From NCBI RefSeq assembly GCF_000564855.1, contig NZ_AYXG01000169.1:1-36752 (forward strand): 36,752 nucleotides of DNA, given 5' to 3'. Shown one piece after another: positions 20,459-32,999 of the stretch. Numbering within the stretch: the stretch's first letter is position 1; each line of letters starts with the position of its first letter. Below the pieces are notes generated by a model, which saw only the letters and a list, made by a program, of their open reading frames with translations, did no database searches and was not told the origin of the DNA. The stretch is from Actinokineospora spheciospongiae (GTDB lineage: Bacteria > Actinomycetota > Actinomycetes > Mycobacteriales > Pseudonocardiaceae). A program made the translations under genes and the position numbers.

Positions 20459-21829
20459 GTGCTCCGCCCACGTCCGACGGCCGTGCTGGCCGTCGTCCTG
20501 CTCTCCACCGTCGTCTTCCCCCTCACCATCACCGGCTCCTCCGCCGCGCTGCCCGACATCGCGACCTCGCTGTCGGCGGGGCCGGGCGCCACGCGCTGGG
20601 TGGTGACCGGCTACAACGCCGCGTTCGCCGCGTTCCTGGTGTTCACCGGCTCCCTAGCCGACGTCCTCGGCAGGCGCCGCTGCTACCTGGCGGGAGTCGC
20701 ACTCTTCGCCGCCGCGGGCCTCACCAGCGCCTTGGCCACCGACGTCGTCGCGCTCGACGCCCTGCGCTTCGCGGCCGGGATCGGCGCCGCCGCGGCCGTC
20801 ACCGGCGGCGGCTCGATCCTCGCCGAGACCTTCTCCGGGGCCGCCAGGGCCAGGGCCTTCGGGCTGCTCGGGACCGTCCTCGGCGCCGGTCTCGCCTTCG
20901 GCCCCACGATCGGCGGCCTGCTCGTCGACCACCTGGGCTGGCGGGCGGTGTTCGCCGTGCCCGCGGCGCTGGCTGCTTTCGCGCTCGTCTGCGCCCCGTT
21001 GCTCCCGGTCCTGCCCGGGAACCCCCACCGCCGCGTCGACTGGGCCGGGGCGGCGCTGTCGACCGCGGCGCTGCTGGTGGTGATCACCGCGGTGTCCGAG
21101 GCGGCCTACTGGTGGCTGCTGCTGGTGCCGCTGCTCGGCGCCGCGTTCGCCCGGGTCGAGCGGCACCGGCCCGACCCGCTGTTCGACCTGGGGTTGCTGC
21201 GCAACCGCCGGTTCACCGCGCTGTCGGCGGCGGCCGGGTCGTTCATGGCCGTGCTGGTGCCGCTGCTGGTCTACCTGCCGTCGTACCTGATCTCCGTGGT
21301 GGGGATGGGCGCGGGCGAGGCCGGGCTGTGGCTGCTGCTGCTCACCCTGCCCACGGTGGTGCTGCCCCCGCTCGGGGCGCTGCTGGTGCGGGCCGTGCCC
21401 GTGCCCGTCGTCGTGGTGGGGTCGCTGCTGGGAACCGGCGCGGGCGCGCTGCTGCTGGTCACCGCGACCCCGCGCCCGGGGCCGTGGATGGGCGCGTTCG
21501 TGCTGGTCGGCGCCGGTGTCGGGCTGACGACGGGCCTGCTGGACGGGCTGGCGCTGGGCGCCGTCCCCGGCGAGCAGGCGGGCGCGGCGTCGGGCATGTT
21601 CAACGCCGCGCGGCTCGGCACGGAGACGGTGGCGCTGGCCGCGGTGGGCCCGCTGCTGGCCGCGCTCGGCGGCGGGTCGCTGATCGGCACCGACGGGCTG
21701 CGGGTGGTCGGCGCCCTGCTGGGCTGCTTCGCGGCGGTCGCCGCCGGGGTCGTCGGGTGGACCTGGCACAATGGTCGGTCGAACACCGGTTTCGGTTCAC
21801 CCCGTGACGGGGACCCGACGACCACCTGA
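20459..21829 (+). CDS. MFS transporter, DHA2-type drug/H+ antiporter
   Basis: 456 residues with about 14 hydrophobic segments, as in the DrugH+ antiporter-2 group. Motif A appears as [17 protein letters not shown], and the motif-C-like stretch [28 protein letters not shown] lies in the fifth helix. It should export a cationic or amphipathic compound using the proton gradient. GTG 20459 has GGAAGG six bases upstream. The leader peptide, complementary sequence and hairpin suggest drug-dependent translational or transcriptional control. The C-terminal tail after the last helix ([18 protein letters not shown]) is written over the promoter and leader of rpmE, 13 bp before its start. Confidence 0.92.
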
Positions 21830-21842: not shown

Positions 21843-22055
21843 ATGAAGAGCGGCATCCACCCGGAGTACGCGCCCATCGAGGTCACCTGCAGCTGCGGCG
21901 TCAAGTTCACCACCCGCAGCACCAACACCTCGGGCTCGCTCTACGTCGACATGTGCTCGAACTGCCACCCGTTCTACACCGGCAAGCAGCGCATCATGGA
22001 CACCGGCGGCCGGGTCGCGCGCTTCGAGAAGCGCTACGGCAAGCGCCAGAAGTAA
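21843..22055 (+). CDS. rpmE: 50S ribosomal protein L31, zinc-binding type
   Basis: 70 residues, [19 protein letters not shown]..., full length. The four zinc ligands Cys16, Cys18, Cys38 and Cys41 are present, so this is the zinc-containing (C+) form, as opposed to the zinc-independent paralogue induced in zinc starvation. It is a large-subunit protein at the bridge to the small subunit. The ATG is preceded by GAGGAGAG. A strong terminator follows 19 bp after the stop. Confidence 0.98.
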
Positions 22056-24688: not shown

Positions 24689-24799
24689 CCGGTGATGGTC
24701 GCAACCGGTCGGGGGGTGGCGCACCCGGATATCCGCTGGACCGGGTGGTCTGCGCGTCCGGATCGTGGGAGTCGGTGCTGGTGGTCTGGACGGGGGTCC

Positions 24800-24805
24800 T
24801 AGGGT
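24800..24805 (+). promoter_or_regulatory. Likely leaderless -10 of the 24.8-33.0 kb operon
   Basis: TAGGGT fits TANNNT and ends six bases before ATG 24812. No Shine-Dalgarno precedes the ATG, which agrees with a leaderless transcript. The -35 is not clear. Confidence 0.5.
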
Positions 24806-24811
24806 CGGGGC

Positions 24812-25828
24812 ATGAGCAGCGTGGAGCGGGTGGAGGCCCTTCCGCTGATCGACATCTCGCGGTTCCGGGGTGCCGGTCGGGAGGGGTTCCTCGACGAGTT
24901 GCGGTGGGCCGCGCACGAGGTCGGGTTCTTCTACGTCGTCGGGCACGGGGTGCCCGAGGCGGTGACGGACGGGATCTTCCGGGTGGCGCGGGAGTTCTTC
25001 GCGCTGCCGCAGGAGCGGCGGCTGGCCATCGAGAACATCCACTCGCCACAGTTCCGGGGGTACACCCGGACCGGGTACGAGTTCACCGGCGGCACCCGCG
25101 ACTGGCGCGAGCAGGTCGACATCGGTCCCGAGCGGGTCCCCGTCGAGGCGCCGGAGCACGACTGGCAGCGGTTGGTCGGGCCCAACCAGTGGCCGGAGGA
25201 CCTGCCCGGGTTCAAGCGGACCGTGCTGGCCTGGCAGGACGAGGCGCTGCGGGTGAGCCGGGAGGTGCTGCGGGCGCTGGCCGCCGCGCTGGGCGCCGAC
25301 GAGGGCCACTTCGACCGGTGGTTCGACGAGGAGGCCTCGACCCACGTCAAGGTCGTGCGCTACCCCGGCCGCCCGGCCGACGACGCCGAGCAGGGCGTTG
25401 GCGCGCACAAGGACTACGGCTACCTGGCCCTGTTGCAGCAGGACGACGTGGGCGGGTTGCAGGTGCAGCTCTCCGACGGGTCCTGGATCGACGCCACCCC
25501 GGTGCCGGGCAGCTTCGTGTTCAACATCGGCGAGATGCTGGAGATCGCCACCGGCGGCTACCTGACCGCCACCCGCCACCGCGTGCTCAGCCCGCCCGCG
25601 GGCGTCGAGCGCTTCTCCGTGCCGTTCTTCCTCGGCCCGCGCCTCGACGCCGTGGTGGAGCCCCTCGACCTGCCCGCCGACCTCGCCGCGCAGGCGCGCG
25701 GGGTCAGCGCGGACGCCGACAACCCGCTGCACGCCGCGTTCGGGGAGAACGCCCTGGTGGGGTGGCTGCGGTCGCACCCGAAGGTGGCGCGGCGCTGGTG
25801 GTCCGACGTGCTGGCGGCCCGCGCGTGA
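24812..25828 (+). CDS. Fe(II)/2-oxoglutarate-type oxygenase, isopenicillin N synthase-like
   Basis: 338 residues. The N-terminal DIOX_N domain (LPLIDISRF, EVGFFYVVGHGVPE, FFALPQERR) precedes the double-stranded beta-helix with the iron ligands His199, Asp201 (GAHKDYG) and His256 (TRHRV), and Arg267-x-Ser269 (RFS) for a 2-oxoacid or carboxylate. Members hydroxylate, desaturate or oxidatively cleave small molecules; the substrate is not readable. It is the first gene of an eight-gene operon. The next gene's GTG overlaps its stop (GTGA), so enzyme and sulfhydrylase are co-translated. The ATG is probably leaderless. Confidence 0.93.
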   Translation: MSSVERVEALPLIDISRFRGAGREGFLDELRWAAHEVGFFYVVGHGVPEAVTDGIFRVAREFFALPQERRLAIENIHSPQFRGYTRTGYEFTGGTRDWREQVDIGPERVPVEAPEHDWQRLVGPNQWPEDLPGFKRTVLAWQDEALRVSREVLRALAAALGADEGHFDRWFDEEASTHVKVVRYPGRPADDAEQGVGAHKDYGYLALLQQDDVGGLQVQLSDGSWIDATPVPGSFVFNIGEMLEIATGGYLTATRHRVLSPPAGVERFSVPFFLGPRLDAVVEPLDLPADLAAQARGVSADADNPLHAAFGENALVGWLRSHPKVARRWWSDVLAARA

Positions 25829-27099
25829 CCCACCGGTTCGAGACCCGCCAGGTCCACGCGGGCGCCCAGCCCGACCCCACGACGGGCGCGCGGGCGACCC
25901 CGGTGCACCTGTCCACGTCCTTCGTCTTCCGCGACGCCGAGCACGCCGCCGCCGCGTTCGCGCTGCGAGACCTGGAGACGCACGCCTACTCCCGGCTGTC
26001 CAACCCGACGACCGCCGTGGCCGAGGCCCGCCTGGCCGACCTGGAGGGCGGGGTGGCGGCGGTCGCGGTGGCCAGCGGGCAGTCGGCGACCGCGCTGGCG
26101 GTGCTGAACCTGGCGCGGGCGGGCGAGCACGTCGTGGCCGCCTCCTCCCTCTACGGCGGCACGCACACCCTGCTCGCGCACACCCTCGACGACCTGGGGA
26201 TCACCACCACCTTCGTCGACGACCAGGACGACCCGGCCGCCTGGCGGGCCGCGACCCGCCCGAACACCCGCGCCTACTACGCCGAGACCGTGGGCAACCC
26301 GCGCGGCAATGTCCTCGACATCGCCGCCGTCGCCGACACCGCGCACGCGGCCGGGGTACCGCTGATCGTCGACAACACCGTGCCCACGCCGTACCTGTGC
26401 AGGCCGATCGAGCACGGCGCCGACGTCGTGGTGCACTCGACCACCAAGTTCCTCGCCGGGCACGGCACGGTCATCGGCGGCGCGGTCGTCGACAGCGGGC
26501 GGTTCCCGTTCGCCGCCGACCCCGACCGCTGGCCGCAGTTCTCCCGGCCCGACCCGACCTACCACGGCCTGGCCTTCGGCGACTCCGGCGAGCTGGCCTA
26601 CTGCCTGCGGCTGCGCACCCGCCTCGTCCGCGACCTGGGCCCCGCGGTGTCGCCGCTCAACTCGTTCCTGCTGCTCAACGGCATCGAGACGCTGTCGCTG
26701 CGGTTGGAGCGGCACGTGGCCAACGCGACCGCCGTGGCCCGGTGGCTGCGCGAGCGGCCCGAGGTGCGGGCGGTGCACTACGCGGGCCTGCCCGACAGCC
26801 CGTGGCACGCCGCGGCGCGGCGGTACCTGCCGCTGGGCGTGGGCGGCGTGCTGGCCTTCGAGCTGCCCGACTTCGACGCGGGCCGCCGGTTCGTCGACCG
26901 GCTGACCCTGTTCAGCCACCTGGCCAACATCGGCGACCTGCGCAGCCTGGTGATCCACCCGGCGTCGACCACGCACGCCCAGCTCGACGAGGAGCAGCAG
27001 CGCGCCGCCGGGGTCACCCCCGGGTTGGTGCGGTTGTCCGTCGGGATCGAGGGCACCCAGGACCTGCTGGCCGACCTGAACCAAGCCCTGTCCCGGTGA
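25825..27099 (+). CDS. metY: O-acetylhomoserine sulfhydrylase-like PLP enzyme
   Basis: 424 residues from GTG 25825, a Cys/Met-metabolism PLP enzyme. Landmarks: RFETRQVHAG, ATPVHLSTSF, YSRLSNPT, ASGQSATALA, Asp183 in LIVDNTVPTPYLC, PLP-lysine Lys208 in HSTTKFLAGHGT, and IGDLRSLVIHPASTTH near the end. Length and the long insert after the lysine suit the MetY type, which makes homocysteine from O-acetylhomoserine and sulfide; a gamma-lyase or thiol-transfer role on a special substrate is possible. It is set inside an importer operon with no other methionine gene, which argues for substrate catabolism or sulfur salvage as opposed to routine biosynthesis. Confidence 0.9.
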   Translation: MTHRFETRQVHAGAQPDPTTGARATPVHLSTSFVFRDAEHAAAAFALRDLETHAYSRLSNPTTAVAEARLADLEGGVAAVAVASGQSATALAVLNLARAGEHVVAASSLYGGTHTLLAHTLDDLGITTTFVDDQDDPAAWRAATRPNTRAYYAETVGNPRGNVLDIAAVADTAHAAGVPLIVDNTVPTPYLCRPIEHGADVVVHSTTKFLAGHGTVIGGAVVDSGRFPFAADPDRWPQFSRPDPTYHGLAFGDSGELAYCLRLRTRLVRDLGPAVSPLNSFLLLNGIETLSLRLERHVANATAVARWLRERPEVRAVHYAGLPDSPWHAAARRYLPLGVGGVLAFELPDFDAGRRFVDRLTLFSHLANIGDLRSLVIHPASTTHAQLDEEQQRAAGVTPGLVRLSVGIEGTQDLLADLNQALSR

Positions 27100-27113
27100 C
27101 GAGGAGTACCACC

Positions 27114-28661
27114 ATGCGCCCCCTGCTCTGGATTCCCGCCGCCGTCGTCGCGCTCGCCGCGACCACGGTCGCCTGCGGCACCGGTGGTGACCCCGGCGCC
27201 CCGGCCACGACCGCCACCCAGGCCGCCACCCCGCCCGACGACCAGCTCGACCTCGGCGCCACCGTCGACGTGCGGCTGATCCTCGAACCGGTCAGCCTCA
27301 ACCCGTTCTCCACCTCCGGTGTCGCGGTCGACCAGCTCCTGCTCGACAACGTCTACGAGGGACTGGTCAGCGCCGACACCGCCGACGGCGACAAGATCGT
27401 CCCCCGGCTGGCCACCTCCCACGAGGTCTCTCCCGACGGCCTGTCCTACACCTTCACCCTGACCCCGGACGCCAAGTTCCACGACGGCTCCGCGCTGACG
27501 TCGGCCGACGTGGTCTGGTCGCTGCAACAGCAGATCGCCCCCGGCTCCAAGGGGCTGCGCGCGGCCGAGTTCGCCTCCGTCGCCGCGGTGTCCGCACCGG
27601 ACCCGACCACGGTGAAGGTCGACCTCAAGCAGCGCGACACCTTCCTGCTGTGGAACCTGACCCAGCGCGGCGGGATCGTGTACAAGAAGGACACCGACTT
27701 CGCCACCCTGGACGCGAAGGACAACGGCTCCGGCCCGTACACCATCGCGAACTGGAACCGCGGCGCCGACATCACCCTGGCCCGAAACGACGCCTACTGG
27801 GGCGCGAAGCCGAAGAACGCCAAGGTGGTGCTGCACTACATCCCCGAGCCCAGCGCGGCGAACAACGCGCAGACCACCGGGCAGACCGACGTGCAGACCG
27901 CGGCCGACGCGACGCTGCTGCAACCGTTCACCGCCAACCCCGGCTTCACCATCCTCAGGGGAACGACGACCGACAAGTTCACCCTGGCGCTGAACAACAA
28001 GCGGGCACCGTTCGACAACCCCGACGTCCGGCACGCCTTCCGCCAGGCGATCAACAAGGAGGACGTCATCGCCGCGTACGGCGCGGGCATCCCCATCGGC
28101 GGCCCGGTCCCGCCGCAGGACCCGTGGTACACCGACCTCACCGGCACCGACGCGCACAACCCCGAGGGCGCCAAGGCCCTGCTGGCCAAGGCGGGCCACG
28201 CGGGTGGCCTGGCGGTGACCCTGGACGTCCCCAACGTCTACCCGCGCGCCATCGCCGACGTGCTGGTGTCGAACCTCAAGCAGGTCGGCGTCACCCTCAC
28301 CGTCCGCCAGGTCGAGTTCCCCACCTGGCTGACCCGGGTGTTCACCAACCACGACTACGAGCTGAGCATCGTCGACCACGCCGAGGCCCGCGACATCGGC
28401 AACTACGCCAAGCCCGACTACTACTTCGGCTACGACAACAAGCAGGTCCAGGCCGACTACGCCGCCGCCCGCGCCGCCGCCTCCGACGGCGAGCGCGACG
28501 AACTGCTGCGCAAGGTCGCCAAGCAGGCCTCCGACGACGCCGCCACCGACTGGCTGTTCGTCAACCAGACCCACACCGTCGTGCGCACCGGCGTCTACGG
28601 CGTGCCGTCGGCGGAGACCACCAACCGGTTCCCGCTCAGCGGCATCGCGGTCGGCAAGTGA
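27114..28661 (+). CDS. Peptide/nickel-type ABC transporter substrate-binding lipoprotein
   Basis: 515 residues, SBP_bac_5 family. The signal peptide ends in the lipobox AATTVAC with lipidated Cys21. Then a Thr/Ala/Pro-rich linker and the domain: EPVSLNPFSTSG, VYEGLV, ATSHEVSPDGLSYTFTLTPDAKFHDGSALTSADVVWSL, GSGPYTIANW, NPDVRHAFRQAINKEDVIAAY. It delivers a peptide-like or other polar solute to the permeases downstream. ATG 27114 has GAGGAG nine bases upstream and lies 14 bp after metY. Which ligand it binds cannot be read from the sequence. Confidence 0.94.
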   Translation: MRPLLWIPAAVVALAATTVACGTGGDPGAPATTATQAATPPDDQLDLGATVDVRLILEPVSLNPFSTSGVAVDQLLLDNVYEGLVSADTADGDKIVPRLATSHEVSPDGLSYTFTLTPDAKFHDGSALTSADVVWSLQQQIAPGSKGLRAAEFASVAAVSAPDPTTVKVDLKQRDTFLLWNLTQRGGIVYKKDTDFATLDAKDNGSGPYTIANWNRGADITLARNDAYWGAKPKNAKVVLHYIPEPSAANNAQTTGQTDVQTAADATLLQPFTANPGFTILRGTTTDKFTLALNNKRAPFDNPDVRHAFRQAINKEDVIAAYGAGIPIGGPVPPQDPWYTDLTGTDAHNPEGAKALLAKAGHAGGLAVTLDVPNVYPRAIADVLVSNLKQVGVTLTVRQVEFPTWLTRVFTNHDYELSIVDHAEARDIGNYAKPDYYFGYDNKQVQADYAAARAAASDGERDELLRKVAKQASDDAATDWLFVNQTHTVVRTGVYGVPSAETTNRFPLSGIAVGK

Positions 28662-29608
28662 CCTTCTGGCTGCTGCGCCGGGTCGCGCTGTTCGCCGTCT
28701 CGCTGCTGGTGGCGAGCGTGCTGGTGTTCGCCCTGCTGCGGCTGCTGCCCGGCGACGTGGCGGCCACCATCGCGGGCACCGACGCGACCCCGCAGCGGCT
28801 GGCAGCCATCCGCGCCGAACTGGGCCTGGACCGGTCGCTGCCCGCCCAGTACGGCTCGTGGCTGGCGGGGGTGCTGCGCGGCGACTTCGGCACCTCGCAG
28901 CTCAACGGCGCCTCGGTGAGCGCTGAGCTGGGGCGCAAGCTGTCGGTGACCGCGCCGCTCGTGCTCGGCGGCGCGCTGCTGGCGGTGCTGGTCGCGTTGC
29001 CGTTCGGGGTGCTCGCCGCGGTGCGCAACCGGACGTTCGTGGGCACCGGGATCAGCGCGGTGTCGCAGGTCGGGATCGCGGTGCCGACGCTGTGGCTGGG
29101 CCTGGTCCTGGTGCTGGTGTTCTCGGTGCAGCTCGGCGCGCTGCCCGCGCAGGGCTTCCCCGTCGACGGCTGGGCGGACCCGGGGTCGGCCGTGCGGAGC
29201 CTGGTGCTGCCGTGGGTGGCGCTGGGGCTGACCGAGGGGGCGGTGCTGCTGCGGTTCGTGCGCTCGGCGGTGCTCGGCGTGCTGCACTCGGACTTCCTGC
29301 GCACCGCCAGGGCCAAGGGGTTGACCAGGGGGCAGGCGTTGCGCGCGCACGGGTTCCGCAACGCCGCGCTGCCGGTGGTGTCGGTGCTGGGCGTGCAGTT
29401 GGCGACGCTGATCGTGGGCGCGGTCGTGGTGGAGCGGGTGTTCACGCTGCCGGGGGTGGGCAGCATGCTGGTGGTCGACGTGGGCAACCGCGACCTGGTG
29501 AAGGTGCAGGGGGAGGTGTTCCTGGTGGTGGCCGCCGTACTGGTGATCAGCCTGCTGGTGGACGTCGCGCACCGGTTGATCGACCCGCGGTTGCGGGAGG
29601 TCCGGTGA
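28658..29608 (+). CDS. ABC transporter permease, DppB-type
   Basis: 316 residues with six predicted transmembrane helices. It starts RRVALFAVSLLVASVLVFALLRLLPGD, typical of DppB/OppB, and the EAA loop appears as FLRTARAKGLTRGQALRAHGFRNAALPV. It forms the channel with the DppC-type protein. GTG 28658 overlaps the stop of the binding-protein gene (GTGA). Confidence 0.94.
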   Translation: MTFWLLRRVALFAVSLLVASVLVFALLRLLPGDVAATIAGTDATPQRLAAIRAELGLDRSLPAQYGSWLAGVLRGDFGTSQLNGASVSAELGRKLSVTAPLVLGGALLAVLVALPFGVLAAVRNRTFVGTGISAVSQVGIAVPTLWLGLVLVLVFSVQLGALPAQGFPVDGWADPGSAVRSLVLPWVALGLTEGAVLLRFVRSAVLGVLHSDFLRTARAKGLTRGQALRAHGFRNAALPVVSVLGVQLATLIVGAVVVERVFTLPGVGSMLVVDVGNRDLVKVQGEVFLVVAAVLVISLLVDVAHRLIDPRLREVR

Positions 29609-30450
29609 CCGCCCTGCGGGTCCTGCGGCTGGTCGCCCGCCGCCCGACCGGGGCGTTCGGGCTGGTCTGGCTGGGGCTGCTCACCGTGGGCGCGGTCGTG
29701 TCGCTGTTCTGGACGCCGTTCGACCCGCAGCGGACCGACCCGGGCAGCGCGTGGCTGCTGCCGTTCACCGACGGGCACGTGCTGGGCACCGACCGGATCG
29801 GGCACGACCAGTTCAGCCAACTGCTGGTCGGTGCGCGGGAGACGCTGGTGGTGGCGGTCTGCTCGGCGTTGGTGGCCGCCGTCGTGGGGCTGGCGCTGGG
29901 GCTGGTCGCCGCCCTGGGACCGCGCTGGGTCGGGTTCTCGGCCGTGGCGCTGATCGACATCCTGGTGGCGTTCCCGACGCTGCTGCTGGCCATGGTGCTC
30001 GCCGCGGTCTACGGCAGCTCGCTGGGCACGGTCGTCGTCGCCATCGGCATCGGGTTCGGCGTGGCGGTGGCCAGGGTCGCCCGCGCGGAGATCACCGCCG
30101 TGCGGGGCACCGACTACGTGCTCGCCGCCCGCGTCGGCGGCGCCGGGACCGGGCGGATCATCCGCCGCCACCTGCTGCCCAACATCGCCCCCACGCTGAT
30201 CGTGCAACTGTCGCTGGTCATGGCGCTGGCGGTGCTGGTGGAGGCCGCGCTGACCTACCTCGGCTACGGCAGCGCGCCGTCGTCGCCGTCCTGGGGCGGG
30301 ATGCTGCACGAGCAGCAGGCGCACATCGCCGCCCGGCCGCTGCTGGTCATCTGGCCCGGCCTGGCGGTGGCGCTGACCGTGCTGGCGTTCAACCTGCTCG
30401 GCGACGCGCTGCGCGAGGCCACCGACCCGAGGCTGGTGCGGACCCGATGA
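29605..30450 (+). CDS. ABC transporter permease, DppC-type
   Basis: 281 residues. The DppC layout is clear: one N-terminal helix, FTDGHVLGTDRIGHDQFSQLLVGARETL, then five helices with the EAA loop YVLAARVGGAGTGRIIRRHLLPNIAPTL, and SWGGMLHEQQ near the end. GTG 29605 overlaps the DppB-type stop (GTGA). Confidence 0.94.
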   Translation: MTALRVLRLVARRPTGAFGLVWLGLLTVGAVVSLFWTPFDPQRTDPGSAWLLPFTDGHVLGTDRIGHDQFSQLLVGARETLVVAVCSALVAAVVGLALGLVAALGPRWVGFSAVALIDILVAFPTLLLAMVLAAVYGSSLGTVVVAIGIGFGVAVARVARAEITAVRGTDYVLAARVGGAGTGRIIRRHLLPNIAPTLIVQLSLVMALAVLVEAALTYLGYGSAPSSPSWGGMLHEQQAHIAARPLLVIWPGLAVALTVLAFNLLGDALREATDPRLVRTR

Positions 30451-31232
30451 GCCTGCTGACCGTGCGCGGCCTGACCGTGCGCCTGGGCGGCAAGACCCTG
30501 CTCGACGGCATCGACCTCGACCTGGGGGCGGGGGAGCGGCTGGGGCTCATCGGCGAGTCCGGTTCCGGCAAGTCGCTCACCGCGCTGGCGGTCCTGGGGC
30601 TGCTGCCCGACGGCGCCGAGGTCGGGGGCAGCGTCCGGCTCGACGGCACCGAACTGCTCGGCCTCGACGACCGGCGGATGTCGCGGGTGCGCGGCGAGCG
30701 GATCGCCATGGTGTTCCAGGAGCCGCGCACCGCGCTGAACCCGCTGATGCGCGTGGGCAGGCAGGTGGCCGAGCCGCTGCGCCGCCACCGCGGCCTGTCC
30801 ACCCGCGCCGCCGCCGCCCGCGCGGTCGAGCTGATCGACAGCGTCGGCCTGCCCGACCCCGAGCGCGCCGCCCGCGCCTACCCGCACCAGCTCTCCGGCG
30901 GCCAGCTCCAGCGCGTCGGCATCGCCACCGCCCTGGCCTGCGACCCGGCCCTGCTGCTCGCCGACGAACCCACCACCGCCCTCGACGTCACCGTGCAGGC
31001 CGACGTCCTCGCCCTGCTCGACCGGCTCGTCGACGAGCACGGCACCGCCCTGCTGTTCATCACCCACGACCTCGCCGTCCTGGCCAGGGTCGCCCGCCGG
31101 GTGCTGGTGCTCGGCGGCGGGCGGGTGCTGGAAGAGGGCACCCTGACCGACGTCCTGCGCGCCCCGACCCACGACTACACCCGCACGCTGCTCGCCGCCG
31201 CCCGCGCCACCTCGTTCACCCGGGAGGCCTGA
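30447..31232 (+). CDS. ABC transporter ATP-binding protein, DppD-type
   Basis: 261 residues. Walker A GESGSGKS, Q-loop VFQEPRTALNP, signature LSGGQLQRVG, Walker B LLLADEPTTALD and the switch His in ITHD are all intact. It lacks the long C-terminal oligopeptide-transporter extension with the iron-sulfur cysteines seen in some DppD proteins. ATG 30447 overlaps the previous stop (ATGA). Confidence 0.94.
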   Translation: MSLLTVRGLTVRLGGKTLLDGIDLDLGAGERLGLIGESGSGKSLTALAVLGLLPDGAEVGGSVRLDGTELLGLDDRRMSRVRGERIAMVFQEPRTALNPLMRVGRQVAEPLRRHRGLSTRAAAARAVELIDSVGLPDPERAARAYPHQLSGGQLQRVGIATALACDPALLLADEPTTALDVTVQADVLALLDRLVDEHGTALLFITHDLAVLARVARRVLVLGGGRVLEEGTLTDVLRAPTHDYTRTLLAAARATSFTREA

Positions 31233-32005
31233 TGCTCACCGCCGAGGGGCTGAACCGCACCTACCGCCTGCCGCGGCGGTCGCTGTTCGGGGCGCCGGGG
31301 CAGCGGTACGCCGTGCGCGACGTCAGCCTGGCGCTGGCCCCGGGGGAGCGGCTGGGCGTGGTGGGCGAGTCCGGGTCGGGCAAGTCGACGCTGCTGCGGC
31401 TGCTGCTGGCCCTGGACCGGCCGGACTCCGGCGCGGTCACCTTCCGCGGCCGGGCCGTGCACCCCACCGGGGACCTGCGCTGGTTCCGCCGCGAGGTGCA
31501 GATGGTGCCGCAGGACCCGTACGGCTCGCTGGACCCGAGGATGCGGATCGGCGACAGCGTCCGCGAGCCGCTGGAGTGCCTGCGGGTGCCCGGTGACCAC
31601 CGGGCCCGCGTCGCCGAACTGCTCGCCGCCGTGGGCCTCGACGCCGACGCCGCCGGGCGGTACCCGCACGAGTTCTCCGGCGGGCAGCGCCAGCGCGTCG
31701 CCATCGCCCGCGCGCTCGGCCCGGAACCCGCGGTGCTGCTCGCCGACGAACCGTTCTCCGCCCTCGACGTGGCGGTCCGCGTCCAGGTCACCGCGCTGGT
31801 GCAGGACCTGGTGGACCGGCTCGGGCTGGCGCTGGTCCTGGTCTCGCACGACATCGGGGTGGTCCAACAGCTCTGCGACCGGCTGCTGGTGCTCAAGGAC
31901 GGCGTGGCGGTGGAGTCCGGGGCCACCGCGGACGTCCTGCGCGCGCCGTCGCACCCGTACACCCGGGCCCTGCTCGACGCCGTCCCCCGGCTGCCGGAGG
32001 TCTGA
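31232..32005 (+). CDS. ABC transporter ATP-binding protein, DppF-type
   Basis: 257 residues. Walker A GESGSGKS, Q-loop MVPQDPYGSLDPRM, signature FSGGQRQRVA, Walker B VLLADEPFSALD, switch SHD. The N-terminal TYRLPRRSLFGAPGQRYAVRDVSLAL and PYGSLDPR are typical of the DppF/OppF partner. Its ATG shares one base with the stop of the previous gene (TGATG). With the DppD-type protein it makes the heterodimeric motor. Confidence 0.94.
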   Translation: MLTAEGLNRTYRLPRRSLFGAPGQRYAVRDVSLALAPGERLGVVGESGSGKSTLLRLLLALDRPDSGAVTFRGRAVHPTGDLRWFRREVQMVPQDPYGSLDPRMRIGDSVREPLECLRVPGDHRARVAELLAAVGLDADAAGRYPHEFSGGQRQRVAIARALGPEPAVLLADEPFSALDVAVRVQVTALVQDLVDRLGLALVLVSHDIGVVQQLCDRLLVLKDGVAVESGATADVLRAPSHPYTRALLDAVPRLPEV

Positions 32006-32009
32006 ACCC

Positions 32010-32999
32010 ATGCGCGCCGGACCGCACAACGCCCTCACCGACGTCCCCGGGGTCCTCCTCGGCCACGCCACCCGCATCGGCGGCGGCGCCCTCACCGGCA
32101 CCACCGCCGTCCTGCTCCCGGAGGGCACCGTCACCGCCGTCGACGTGCGCGGCGGCGGCCCCAGCACCCGCGACACCCTCGCCCTCGACCCGCGCGAGGA
32201 CCGCCGCGCCGTCGCCGCCCTGGTGCTCACCGGCGGCAGCTCCTACGGCCTGGGCACCGCCCACGGCGTCCTCGACTGGGTCGCCCGGCACCGCCCCTGG
32301 GCCGACCCGGTCGTCCCCACCGCCGCCCTGTTCGACCTGGGCCGCGGGGGCGACTTCACCGCCCACCCGCGCCCCGAGGTCGGCCACGAGGCGGCGTCGG
32401 CCGCCGCGGGCGGGCCGGTCGCGCAGGGCAACGTCGGCGCCGGGACCGGGGCGCTGACCGCGCAGATGAAGGGCGGCCTCGGCACCGCCAGCGCCACCTT
32501 CCCCGACGGCACCACCGTCGCCGCCGTGGTCGGCATGAACTCCCACCACCCCGCGGTCGACCCGGCCACCGGGCTCCCGCTCGGCGTCGCGTTCGGCCTG
32601 CCCGGCGAGTTCCCGCTCGTCCCCGTCGCCCCGGAGGTGATCGCCGCGGGCCGGGAGCGGTTGCGGGCCACGTTCGAGGCCCGGCGGTTCCGCGCGCCGC
32701 TCAACACCGTCATCGGCGTCGTGGCCACCACCGCCCCGCTCACCCCCGGCCAGGCCCACCGCCTCGCCGACGCCGGGCACAACGGCCTGTCCCTGGCCAT
32801 CCGCCCGTCGCACGGCCTGGCCGACGGCGACACGATCTTCGCCGCCGCCACCGGGTCCTCCGGCACCGCCGCGACCGCGCTCTCCGCCGCTCCCGGCGTG
32901 TTCGCCCGCGCCATCGCCCACGCCGTCCTCGCCGCCACGTCGATCACCACCGACTGGGGCGAACTGCTCGCCCACCGGGACCTCTACCCGCAACCCTGA
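32010..32999 (+). CDS. P1/DmpA-family aminopeptidase (Ntn-type)
   Basis: 329 residues. It resembles the mycobacterial Rv1333-like branch of peptidase family S58: LTDVPGVLLGHATR, VDVRGGGPSTRDT, LTGGSSYGLGTAHGV, GNVGAGTGA, MKGGLGTASATFPDG, VDPATGLPLG. By comparison with DmpA (Gly-Ser before IIVVVATDAPL), the self-cleavage and nucleophile site should be Asn232-Thr233 in PLNTVIGVVATTAPL. DmpA relatives release N-terminal amino acids, including D- and beta-residues, from small peptides. It lies four bases after the ATPase gene and closes the operon, so it probably opens the imported substrate in the cytoplasm. No signal peptide is present. Confidence 0.9.
   Translation: MRAGPHNALTDVPGVLLGHATRIGGGALTGTTAVLLPEGTVTAVDVRGGGPSTRDTLALDPREDRRAVAALVLTGGSSYGLGTAHGVLDWVARHRPWADPVVPTAALFDLGRGGDFTAHPRPEVGHEAASAAAGGPVAQGNVGAGTGALTAQMKGGLGTASATFPDGTTVAAVVGMNSHHPAVDPATGLPLGVAFGLPGEFPLVPVAPEVIAAGRERLRATFEARRFRAPLNTVIGVVATTAPLTPGQAHRLADAGHNGLSLAIRPSHGLADGDTIFAAATGSSGTAATALSAAPGVFARAIAHAVLAATSITTDWGELLAHRDLYPQP

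Follow-up and report, generated by a model that had tools for sequence, protein, structure and literature searches.

A Conserved Operon of Actinokineospora spheciospongiae Joining an Isopenicillin N Synthase-like Oxygenase, a Second MetY and a Peptide-Type Importer, with a Likely Role in Sulfur Salvage

Overview

An eight-gene operon of the actinobacterium Actinokineospora spheciospongiae is described here. It occupies positions 24812–32999 of contig NZ_AYXG01000169.1 (contig 168 of the 7.5-Mb assembly), whose full 36,752 nucleotides are referred to as the window. The operon encodes an isopenicillin N synthase (IPNS)-like oxygenase, a MetY-like enzyme, an ATP-binding cassette (ABC) importer of five proteins and a P1-family enzyme. 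It is a real, conserved operon, and its role is likely sulfur salvage. Its gene content, gene families, intact motifs and conserved order are directly observed, as is the recurrent association of the oxygenase with MetY, with MetQNI-like importers and with organosulfur-type monooxygenases.

From these features we infer the substrate, each reaction, the order of reactions and the use of 2-oxoglutarate (2OG). As judged from sequence, there is an even chance that the operon is an organosulfur-salvage unit working by import, amide hydrolysis, oxidative C–S cleavage and capture by MetY, which is the simplest order of events. The importer (genes 3–7) would take in a small sulfur compound with an amide bond, and the ThnT-like P1 enzyme would hydrolyse that bond, a task in which an alpha/beta-hydrolase may replace or assist it elsewhere. 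The Fe(II)/2OG-type oxygenase would then oxidise the carbon adjoining the sulfur, so that the C–S bond breaks to release a thiol or sulfide; in other species, flavin enzymes may join in this cleavage. Finally, the dedicated MetY would transfer the freed sulfur to O-acetylhomoserine to yield homocysteine or methionine. The importer, oxygenase and MetY genes expected of such a unit are present and in order, with C–S cleavage by the oxygenase as the predicted step. A sequence-only reading of the window had proposed a sulfur-salvage route, and it is the sulfur part of that proposal that has gained support, from the importer, the oxygenase, the dedicated second MetY and the sulfur-linked relatives described below.

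Gene Organization and Conservation

All eight genes lie on the plus strand, each was also picked by a codon-position gene caller, and the family assignments agree. The IPNS-like Fe(II)/2OG-type oxygenase (24812–25828; 338 aa) is followed, with a four-base overlap at 25825 and a GTG start, by the MetY-like O-acetylhomoserine sulfhydrylase (25825–27099; 424 aa). After a gap of 14 bp come a family-5 substrate-binding protein (SBP) with a lipoprotein-like N terminus (27114–28661; 515 aa) and two GTG-initiated permeases of the DppB/NikB (28658–29608) and DppC/NikC (29605–30450) types, entered by four-base overlaps at 28658 and 29605. Two ATPases with Walker A and signature motifs complete this peptide/nickel-type ABC importer: an OppD/NikD type (30447–31232), with a four-base overlap at 30447, and an OppF/DppF type (31232–32005), with a one-base overlap at 31232. 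A gap of 4 bp precedes the ThnT-like P1/S58 family enzyme (32010–32999). These same-strand genes, overlaps and gaps are as the sequence-only reading had listed them, and all coordinates were confirmed when re-read. Gene order supports the prediction that the eight genes form a single conserved transcription unit.

The oxygenase was searched for in 150 related genomes, and 26 loci of at least 47% identity were taken, out of 29 besides the window's own. MetY adjoins the oxygenase in 10 of these 26; at one locus (L049), the oxygenase had been missed by the gene caller and no MetY is found. It had been predicted that gene order should hold beyond the ABC genes, and so it does. The exact eight-gene order recurs in two other Actinokineospora species (L037, L038), and nine further loci (L041, L085, L086, L087, L089, L090, L093, L146, L149) carry the first seven genes contiguously, with an alpha/beta-hydrolase gene after MetY. 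L041, for instance, keeps the importer behind the pair. An unbroken series of oxygenase-MetY-(hydrolase)-SBP-permease-permease-ATPase-ATPase is thereby found in 12 loci from five genera, window included. Within the genus (16 genomes), the oxygenase (E ≤ 1e-125) occurs in 11, the pair with MetY in six including the window, and the importer behind the pair in three.

Conservation was also followed from the importer side, by searching for SBP relatives in 390 genomes and fetching 16 further loci. Ten SBPs share at least 52% identity with that of the window, and oxygenase, MetY and hydrolase genes stand directly ahead of six of them. A relic precedes the SBP of L084, with the start of the oxygenase fused into the end of the hydrolase (L084 7703–7930), and the same genome (G263) holds an intact oxygenase-MetY-hydrolase set at L136 7293–10403. 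Neither oxygenase nor MetY accompanies the SBPs of L088, L091 and L092, which also reach 52% identity, and L092 retains the hydrolase. Two Nocardia loci (L146, L149) read oxygenase-MetY-hydrolase-SBP-B-C-D-F. The operon of G263 is split in two, one part being the pair and hydrolase, the other an importer-monooxygenase-P1 set with the relic, and both parts bear the promoter element discussed below.

These neighbourhoods bear on an alternative account, in which a nickel or ordinary peptide importer happens to lie beside incidental enzymes and serves general peptide scavenging. The SBP, permeases and ATPases do resemble Dpp/Opp/Nik/Gsi proteins, and SBPs at 36–42% identity lack an oxygenase alongside in six of six cases. 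Against this stands the oxygenase-MetY pair ahead of the closer SBPs in six of ten loci, with a relic in a seventh, and its presence in the two Nocardia loci, so that incidental association is very unlikely. Equivalog cut-offs give the SBP no narrower name, since its scores fall well short for NikA (115.3 vs 393 bits), GsiB (93.4 vs 594) and DppA (80.8 vs 1005). Its structure model (predicted local distance difference test score, pLDDT, 78.6) is nearest in fold to a glutathione-binding protein, followed by agropinic-acid and dipeptide binders.

The MetY-like Enzyme and the Oxygenase

With 593.3 bits against 495.1, the MetY-like protein clears the subfamily cut-off of TIGR01326 (O-acetylhomoserine/O-acetylserine sulfhydrylase); among the best 25 of 46 families, it reaches none of the equivalog cut-offs. 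Its lysine K208 is found in the STTK-type motif VVHSTTKFLAGHG (STTKF in the window), and a lysine of this kind is taken to bind pyridoxal phosphate (PLP). A MetY of 72–100% identity occurs in 16 of 20 genomes searched, all 16 of which also hold a copy of 60–65%; the window enzyme is a second copy alongside a housekeeping MetY. These results support the view that it is a dedicated copy serving the operon, where it would make homocysteine from O-acetylhomoserine and sulfide.

An opposite direction is conceivable for this PLP enzyme, namely that of a methionine gamma-lyase (MGL) degrading methionine or its relatives, with no homocysteine synthesis. The second-best solved match, 8wko, bears the label L-methionine gamma-lyase. 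The enzyme fails the met_gam_lyase cut-off (341.1 vs 549.7 bits), having passed that for sulfhydrylases, and it carries YGGT where, presumably, the cysteine of P. putida MGL would lie. The oxygenase furthermore stands beside MetY and MetX in two relatives (L060, L061). A comparable partner enzyme was named MegL-like in the accessible part of PMC3228920, in favor of degradation. On balance, a gamma-lyase role appears highly improbable.

In a 42-row MetY tree (support values given as pairs), the actinobacterial oxygenase-linked MetYs group together with good support (21 rows, 95/98), those of L060 and L061 group within the housekeeping set, and the alphaproteobacterial oxygenase-linked MetYs form a third set (6 rows, 100/98). 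Two of the rows are of low quality: L169_9 was wrongly labelled as linked, being a gamma-synthase-like protein encoded six genes off, and L184 has a long branch. Since three MetY lineages adjoin one oxygenase family, a functional tie between oxygenase and MetY is favoured.

The oxygenase passes the Pfam cut-offs for DIOX_N and 2OG-FeII_Oxy, and its HxD...H iron ligands and RxS motif (H199, D201, H256, R267, S269) are invariant across 25 orthologues. Its structure model is good (pLDDT 93.5). The nearest solved structures, at 35–37% identity, are 9ovh, an ancestral ethylene-forming enzyme construct, and 6jyv, an IPNS-like protein from P. aeruginosa. An identity as IPNS proper was rejected, as IPNS chains rank far lower (E 5e-16 vs 6e-62 for 9ovh and 6e-52 for 6jyv) and the eight genes include no nonribosomal peptide synthetase for the aminoadipyl-cysteinyl-valine tripeptide. 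Use of 2OG is graded as likely and no higher, because RxS is presumably present in IPNS as well.

Distribution of the Oxygenase-MetY Pair

The core that is widely conserved is the pair and not the full set of eight genes. When species genomes were scanned with an oxygenase alignment, at least 571 relatives were confirmed, and neighbourhoods were taken from the best 80 named ones. In 14 of these 80, MetY is no more than two genes away from the oxygenase; MetQ- or MetI-like genes lie within three genes in 3, and any sulfur marker lies within three genes in 19. Marker density falls with distance, from 29 of 446 genes at distances of 1–3 to 11 of 398 at 4–6 and 8 of 276 at 7–9. By these counts, the sulfur link applies to a portion of the family, chiefly its nearest relatives together with some scattered Alphaproteobacteria.

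In the Alphaproteobacteria, the pair recurs with NMT1-type importers and SfnB/NtaA-like enzymes. For example, SfnB-like and NtaA/DmoA enzymes adjoin an oxygenase-MetY-importer set in L158, a cystathionine-beta-synthase-like enzyme accompanies the same arrangement in L169, and L214 reads importer-MetY-oxygenase, the importer being of the NMT1 type in all three. MetQNI-like importers adjoin oxygenase relatives in Pseudomonas, Mesorhizobium and actinobacteria. The order is oxygenase-MetQ-MetN-MetI in L208 (L206 is alike, without a called MetI) and MetQ-MetN-MetI-oxygenase in L188, L055 and L057. L060 and L061 read oxygenase-MetY-MetX, both with a gene that looks like a nickel/cobalt transporter, and the MetX of L060 passes its cut-off, as do the NlpA of L206 and both scanned MetYs (L158, L169).

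That the pair stays the same while its importers differ also leaves room for the two enzymes to act in reverse, MetY first and S-dealkylation second. MetY would load a thiol, RSH, onto O-acetylhomoserine as S-alkyl-homocysteine, and the oxygenase would then dealkylate it to homocysteine, making the pair a general thiol-to-homocysteine converter served by whichever importer is at hand. The importers do change around a constant pair, being of the peptide type in 12 loci, of the NMT1 type in L158, L169 and L214, and elsewhere not found nearby; MetQNI-like importers next to the oxygenase would in this case deliver S-alkyl-homocysteine analogues directly. On the other hand, the P1 enzyme and flavin monooxygenases would then be reduced to suppliers, and the reverse order is considered unlikely. 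The same doubtful standing is given to its broader form, a portable salvage module in which MetY would join foreign thiols to homoserine. The distal C–S bond would then be split by the oxygenase acting as an iron/2OG S-dealkylase, giving homocysteine plus an aldehyde or ketone with any importer supplying the sulfur.

Two further kinds of neighbour were seen around oxygenase relatives. Genes reading as nickel/cobalt transporters lie nearby in two unrelated contexts (L059 8117–9274, L060 13331–14422) and are perhaps tied to B12-dependent methionine synthase. An Rrf2-family regulator adjoins the oxygenase in two Alphaproteobacteria (L155 4710–5153, by Pfam, and L152 11727–12170), near amino-acid importer and cystathionine-beta-synthase-like genes.

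The P1 Enzyme and Variable Members

The eighth protein scores 162.5 bits for Peptidase_S58 (cut-off 23.9). Its closest solved match by far is ThnT (3tm1, E 6.6e-70), followed by a nylon hydrolase (9cxr, E 8.8e-33), with the aminopeptidase 1b65, which we take to be DmpA, much further off (E 1.5e-7). The earlier assignment of a DmpA-type peptidase is therefore not upheld. The LNT of the window protein, with N232-T233 as the predicted N-T self-cleavage site, aligns with the LNT of ThnT, which is read as LNC in entry 3s3u.

This likeness raises the alternative that pantetheine or a close relative is salvaged, with P1 as the pantetheine hydrolase and the oxygenase releasing the cysteamine sulfur for capture by MetY. 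ThnT as best match and the retained LNT site suit this idea. Nylon hydrolases match P1 too, so that the family name leaves the substrate unfixed, and P1 is missing or truncated in many of these operons; pantetheine is thus a quite unlikely substrate.

P1 is in fact among the least constant members of the operon. It follows the ATPases in the window, L037, L038, L084 and L093, follows the SBP in L092, and is truncated in L041 (a short remnant) and L086. The hydrolase inserted after MetY is an S33-type alpha/beta enzyme. Luciferase-like monooxygenases follow the ATPases in L041, L084 and L088, with shorter versions in L085 and L086. Monooxygenases of the NtaA/DmoA family stand there as well: two in L084 pass the curated cut-off (362.8 and 530.4 vs 279.7 bits), and by sequence reading L088 and L090 also have members of this family. 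The nearest model to the luciferase-like enzymes of the variant operons is TIGR04027 (203.1 and 193.8 bits vs a cut-off of 412.9), the numbered neighbour of TIGR04028. The latter is in turn nearest to the SBP of a second peptide-type importer that carries the promoter element (L131 6134–7747, also L129 and L130), at 340.2 bits against a cut-off of 468.5, where the window SBP scores only 46.2. Lastly, an aliphatic aldoxime dehydratase gene (649.4 vs 600 bits; L041 8093–9151) lies immediately before the oxygenase-MetY operon of G078.

The Upstream Promoter Element

Comparison of oxygenase upstream regions revealed a promoter element, GTCCGnnATnTGRGA, at similar positions ahead of many orthologues, and this element marks many of these operons. 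The window has a diverged copy, GTCCGGATCGTGGGA, at 24756–24770 on the plus strand, with a leave-one-out score of 11.8 that ranks second among 73,476 window positions. A possible -10 box, TAGGGT, may be read by eye at 24800–24805 on the same strand, six bases before the ATG, and a similar TAnnnT appears by eye at the -10 place in many orthologues. Because the window copy has diverged, the strict pattern has no match in the window's own genome.

Eighteen chosen genomes contain 29 exact sites, against 8 for a reversed control pattern. Fourteen of the 29 precede oxygenases (one a relic), 2 precede an MsnO8-type monooxygenase (G009, G012), 2 a DUF1684 protein (G003, G009) and 3 a second peptide-type importer (G005, G008, G015), the families of marked genes having been checked on one member each; the other 8 are intragenic or without a clear promoter. 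In the 390-genome scan, an exact site lies no more than about 60 bases from the matched oxygenase start in 10 of 26 oxygenase genomes among those listed before G254. When 397 promoters were scored, 25 reached 15 bits: 16 of oxygenases, which are partly circular since the matrix was built from oxygenase sites, 4 of neighbours on the same stretch and 5 from pattern-fetched loci. For comparison, 15 of 2000 random 180-base pieces reached 15 bits, about as many as expected given that their loci contain the site. In six Amycolatopsis-like loci, the element is flanked by two divergently oriented genes, and one of the two reads as serC. DUF1684 proteins were located at L134 9169–9936 (by Pfam), L135 9727–10521 and L094 13643–14467 (by similarity). 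Two of the three genes carry the element, and one lies directly behind a 42%-identical importer in another genus.

The element was not found ahead of housekeeping metY in the 9 of 12 loci read, where the best scores (3.2–10.7) are scattered and all on the other strand. An apparent link to metK, before which the pattern seemed to occur in many genomes, was rejected as a coding artefact. In the 10 of 29 loci that were translated, all 10 sites fall within the terminal part of the preceding gene (440–466 open residues before the site), which reads as coaBC and whose C-terminal ...WD... is encoded by the site. For the same reason, sites that overlap the ATG of a gene resembling those for sigma factors (L245–L247, L253, L254) were dropped. 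The only match at gathering score in an Rfam scan of the window lies outside the operon, an L31-Actinobacteria ribosomal leader (RF03158; 45 bits vs 35) at 21786–21823; directly after it, a small open reading frame (21843–22055) reads as ribosomal protein L31.

Points Against a Sulfur Role

Several observations weigh against sulfur salvage. MetY is lacking at 16 of the 26 nearer-relative oxygenase loci, and 61 of the best 80 relatives have no sulfur marker within three genes, so that the oxygenase family overall need not serve sulfur. The MetQ, MetN, SfnB and cystathionine-beta-synthase assignments among relatives score below NCBI cut-offs. As for the importer, the folds nearest to the modelled SBP bind varied ligands (glutathione, agropinic acid, dipeptides and more), so likeness of fold fixes no ligand. 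Neither an S-adenosylmethionine riboswitch nor a known sulfur operator was found in the window, and the presence of the promoter element does not establish a sulfur signal.

Significance and Relation to Known Systems

To our knowledge, bacterial organosulfur routes depend on flavin monooxygenases or on dioxygenases of the TauD type and lead to sulfite or cysteine (in part after PMC8557817 and PMC12757645). An IPNS-like iron oxygenase that adjoins MetY in several phyla suggests that sulfur may pass directly into homocysteine or methionine. If true, part of a large oxygenase family would gain a role, and the pcbC/megL pair of the MetJ regulon would become testable. The portable module, if real, would be an undescribed organic-sulfur route to methionine common to actinobacteria and proteobacteria.

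The sequence-only reading knew of no described pathway with exactly this set. That holds for the eight genes, of which no published description was found in the literature searched, but not for the type of pair, which is on record from gammaproteobacteria. According to the available part of PMC3228920, one MegL-like gene group is always clustered there with an IPNS-like oxygenase, with no function assigned; the pcbC/megL entry covers 7 species, 5 of which have MetJ boxes, and the authors thought it improbable that MetJ would control an enzyme that degrades methionine. Such boxes would fit if the partner were read as a MetY-type supply enzyme. In the accessible text of PMC8557817, Rhodococcus MetY is more abundant on dibenzothiophene sulfur than on sulfate, in a different operon, and a table for strain IGTS8 includes MetQ, MetN, MetY and NtaA-type proteins; the word "isopenicillin" was not found in that text. 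Nor was a mention of the oxygenase found in the available parts of papers on P. aeruginosa (PMC12581299), Gordonia (PMC7661421) and dimethyl sulfide (PMC13352529).

Among characterized relatives, 6jyv and 9ovh are closest to the window oxygenase, although the records consulted place neither protein in sulfur salvage. ThnT (3tm1, 3s3u), the best solved match of P1 with an aligned LNT site, presumably belongs to thienamycin biosynthesis, whereas P1, known here from sequence, closes an import operon. The models TIGR04027 and TIGR04028 (KPN_01858 luciferase-like monooxygenase and KPN_01854 binding protein) are nearest to the variant-operon enzymes and the L131 SBP, but all scores are below cut-off and the window has no such monooxygenase. 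The gammaproteobacterial pcbC/megL pair, as far as PMC3228920 was available, combines an IPNS-like oxygenase with a gamma-family PLP enzyme, as in the window; it differs in that no importer or P1 is described and the partner is MegL-like, the likeness being one of description. Finally, the scm (yxe), ytn and yha clusters of B. subtilis break S-alkylcysteines by means of acetylation, a monooxygenase and a deacetylase, according to the accessible portion of PMC12757645. Like the route proposed here, they employ a monooxygenase and an amide hydrolase on a blocked sulfur amino acid, with a flavin monooxygenase, an acetyltransferase, an M20 deacetylase and cysteine as the product in B. subtilis, as opposed to an iron oxygenase, P1 and MetY in the window.

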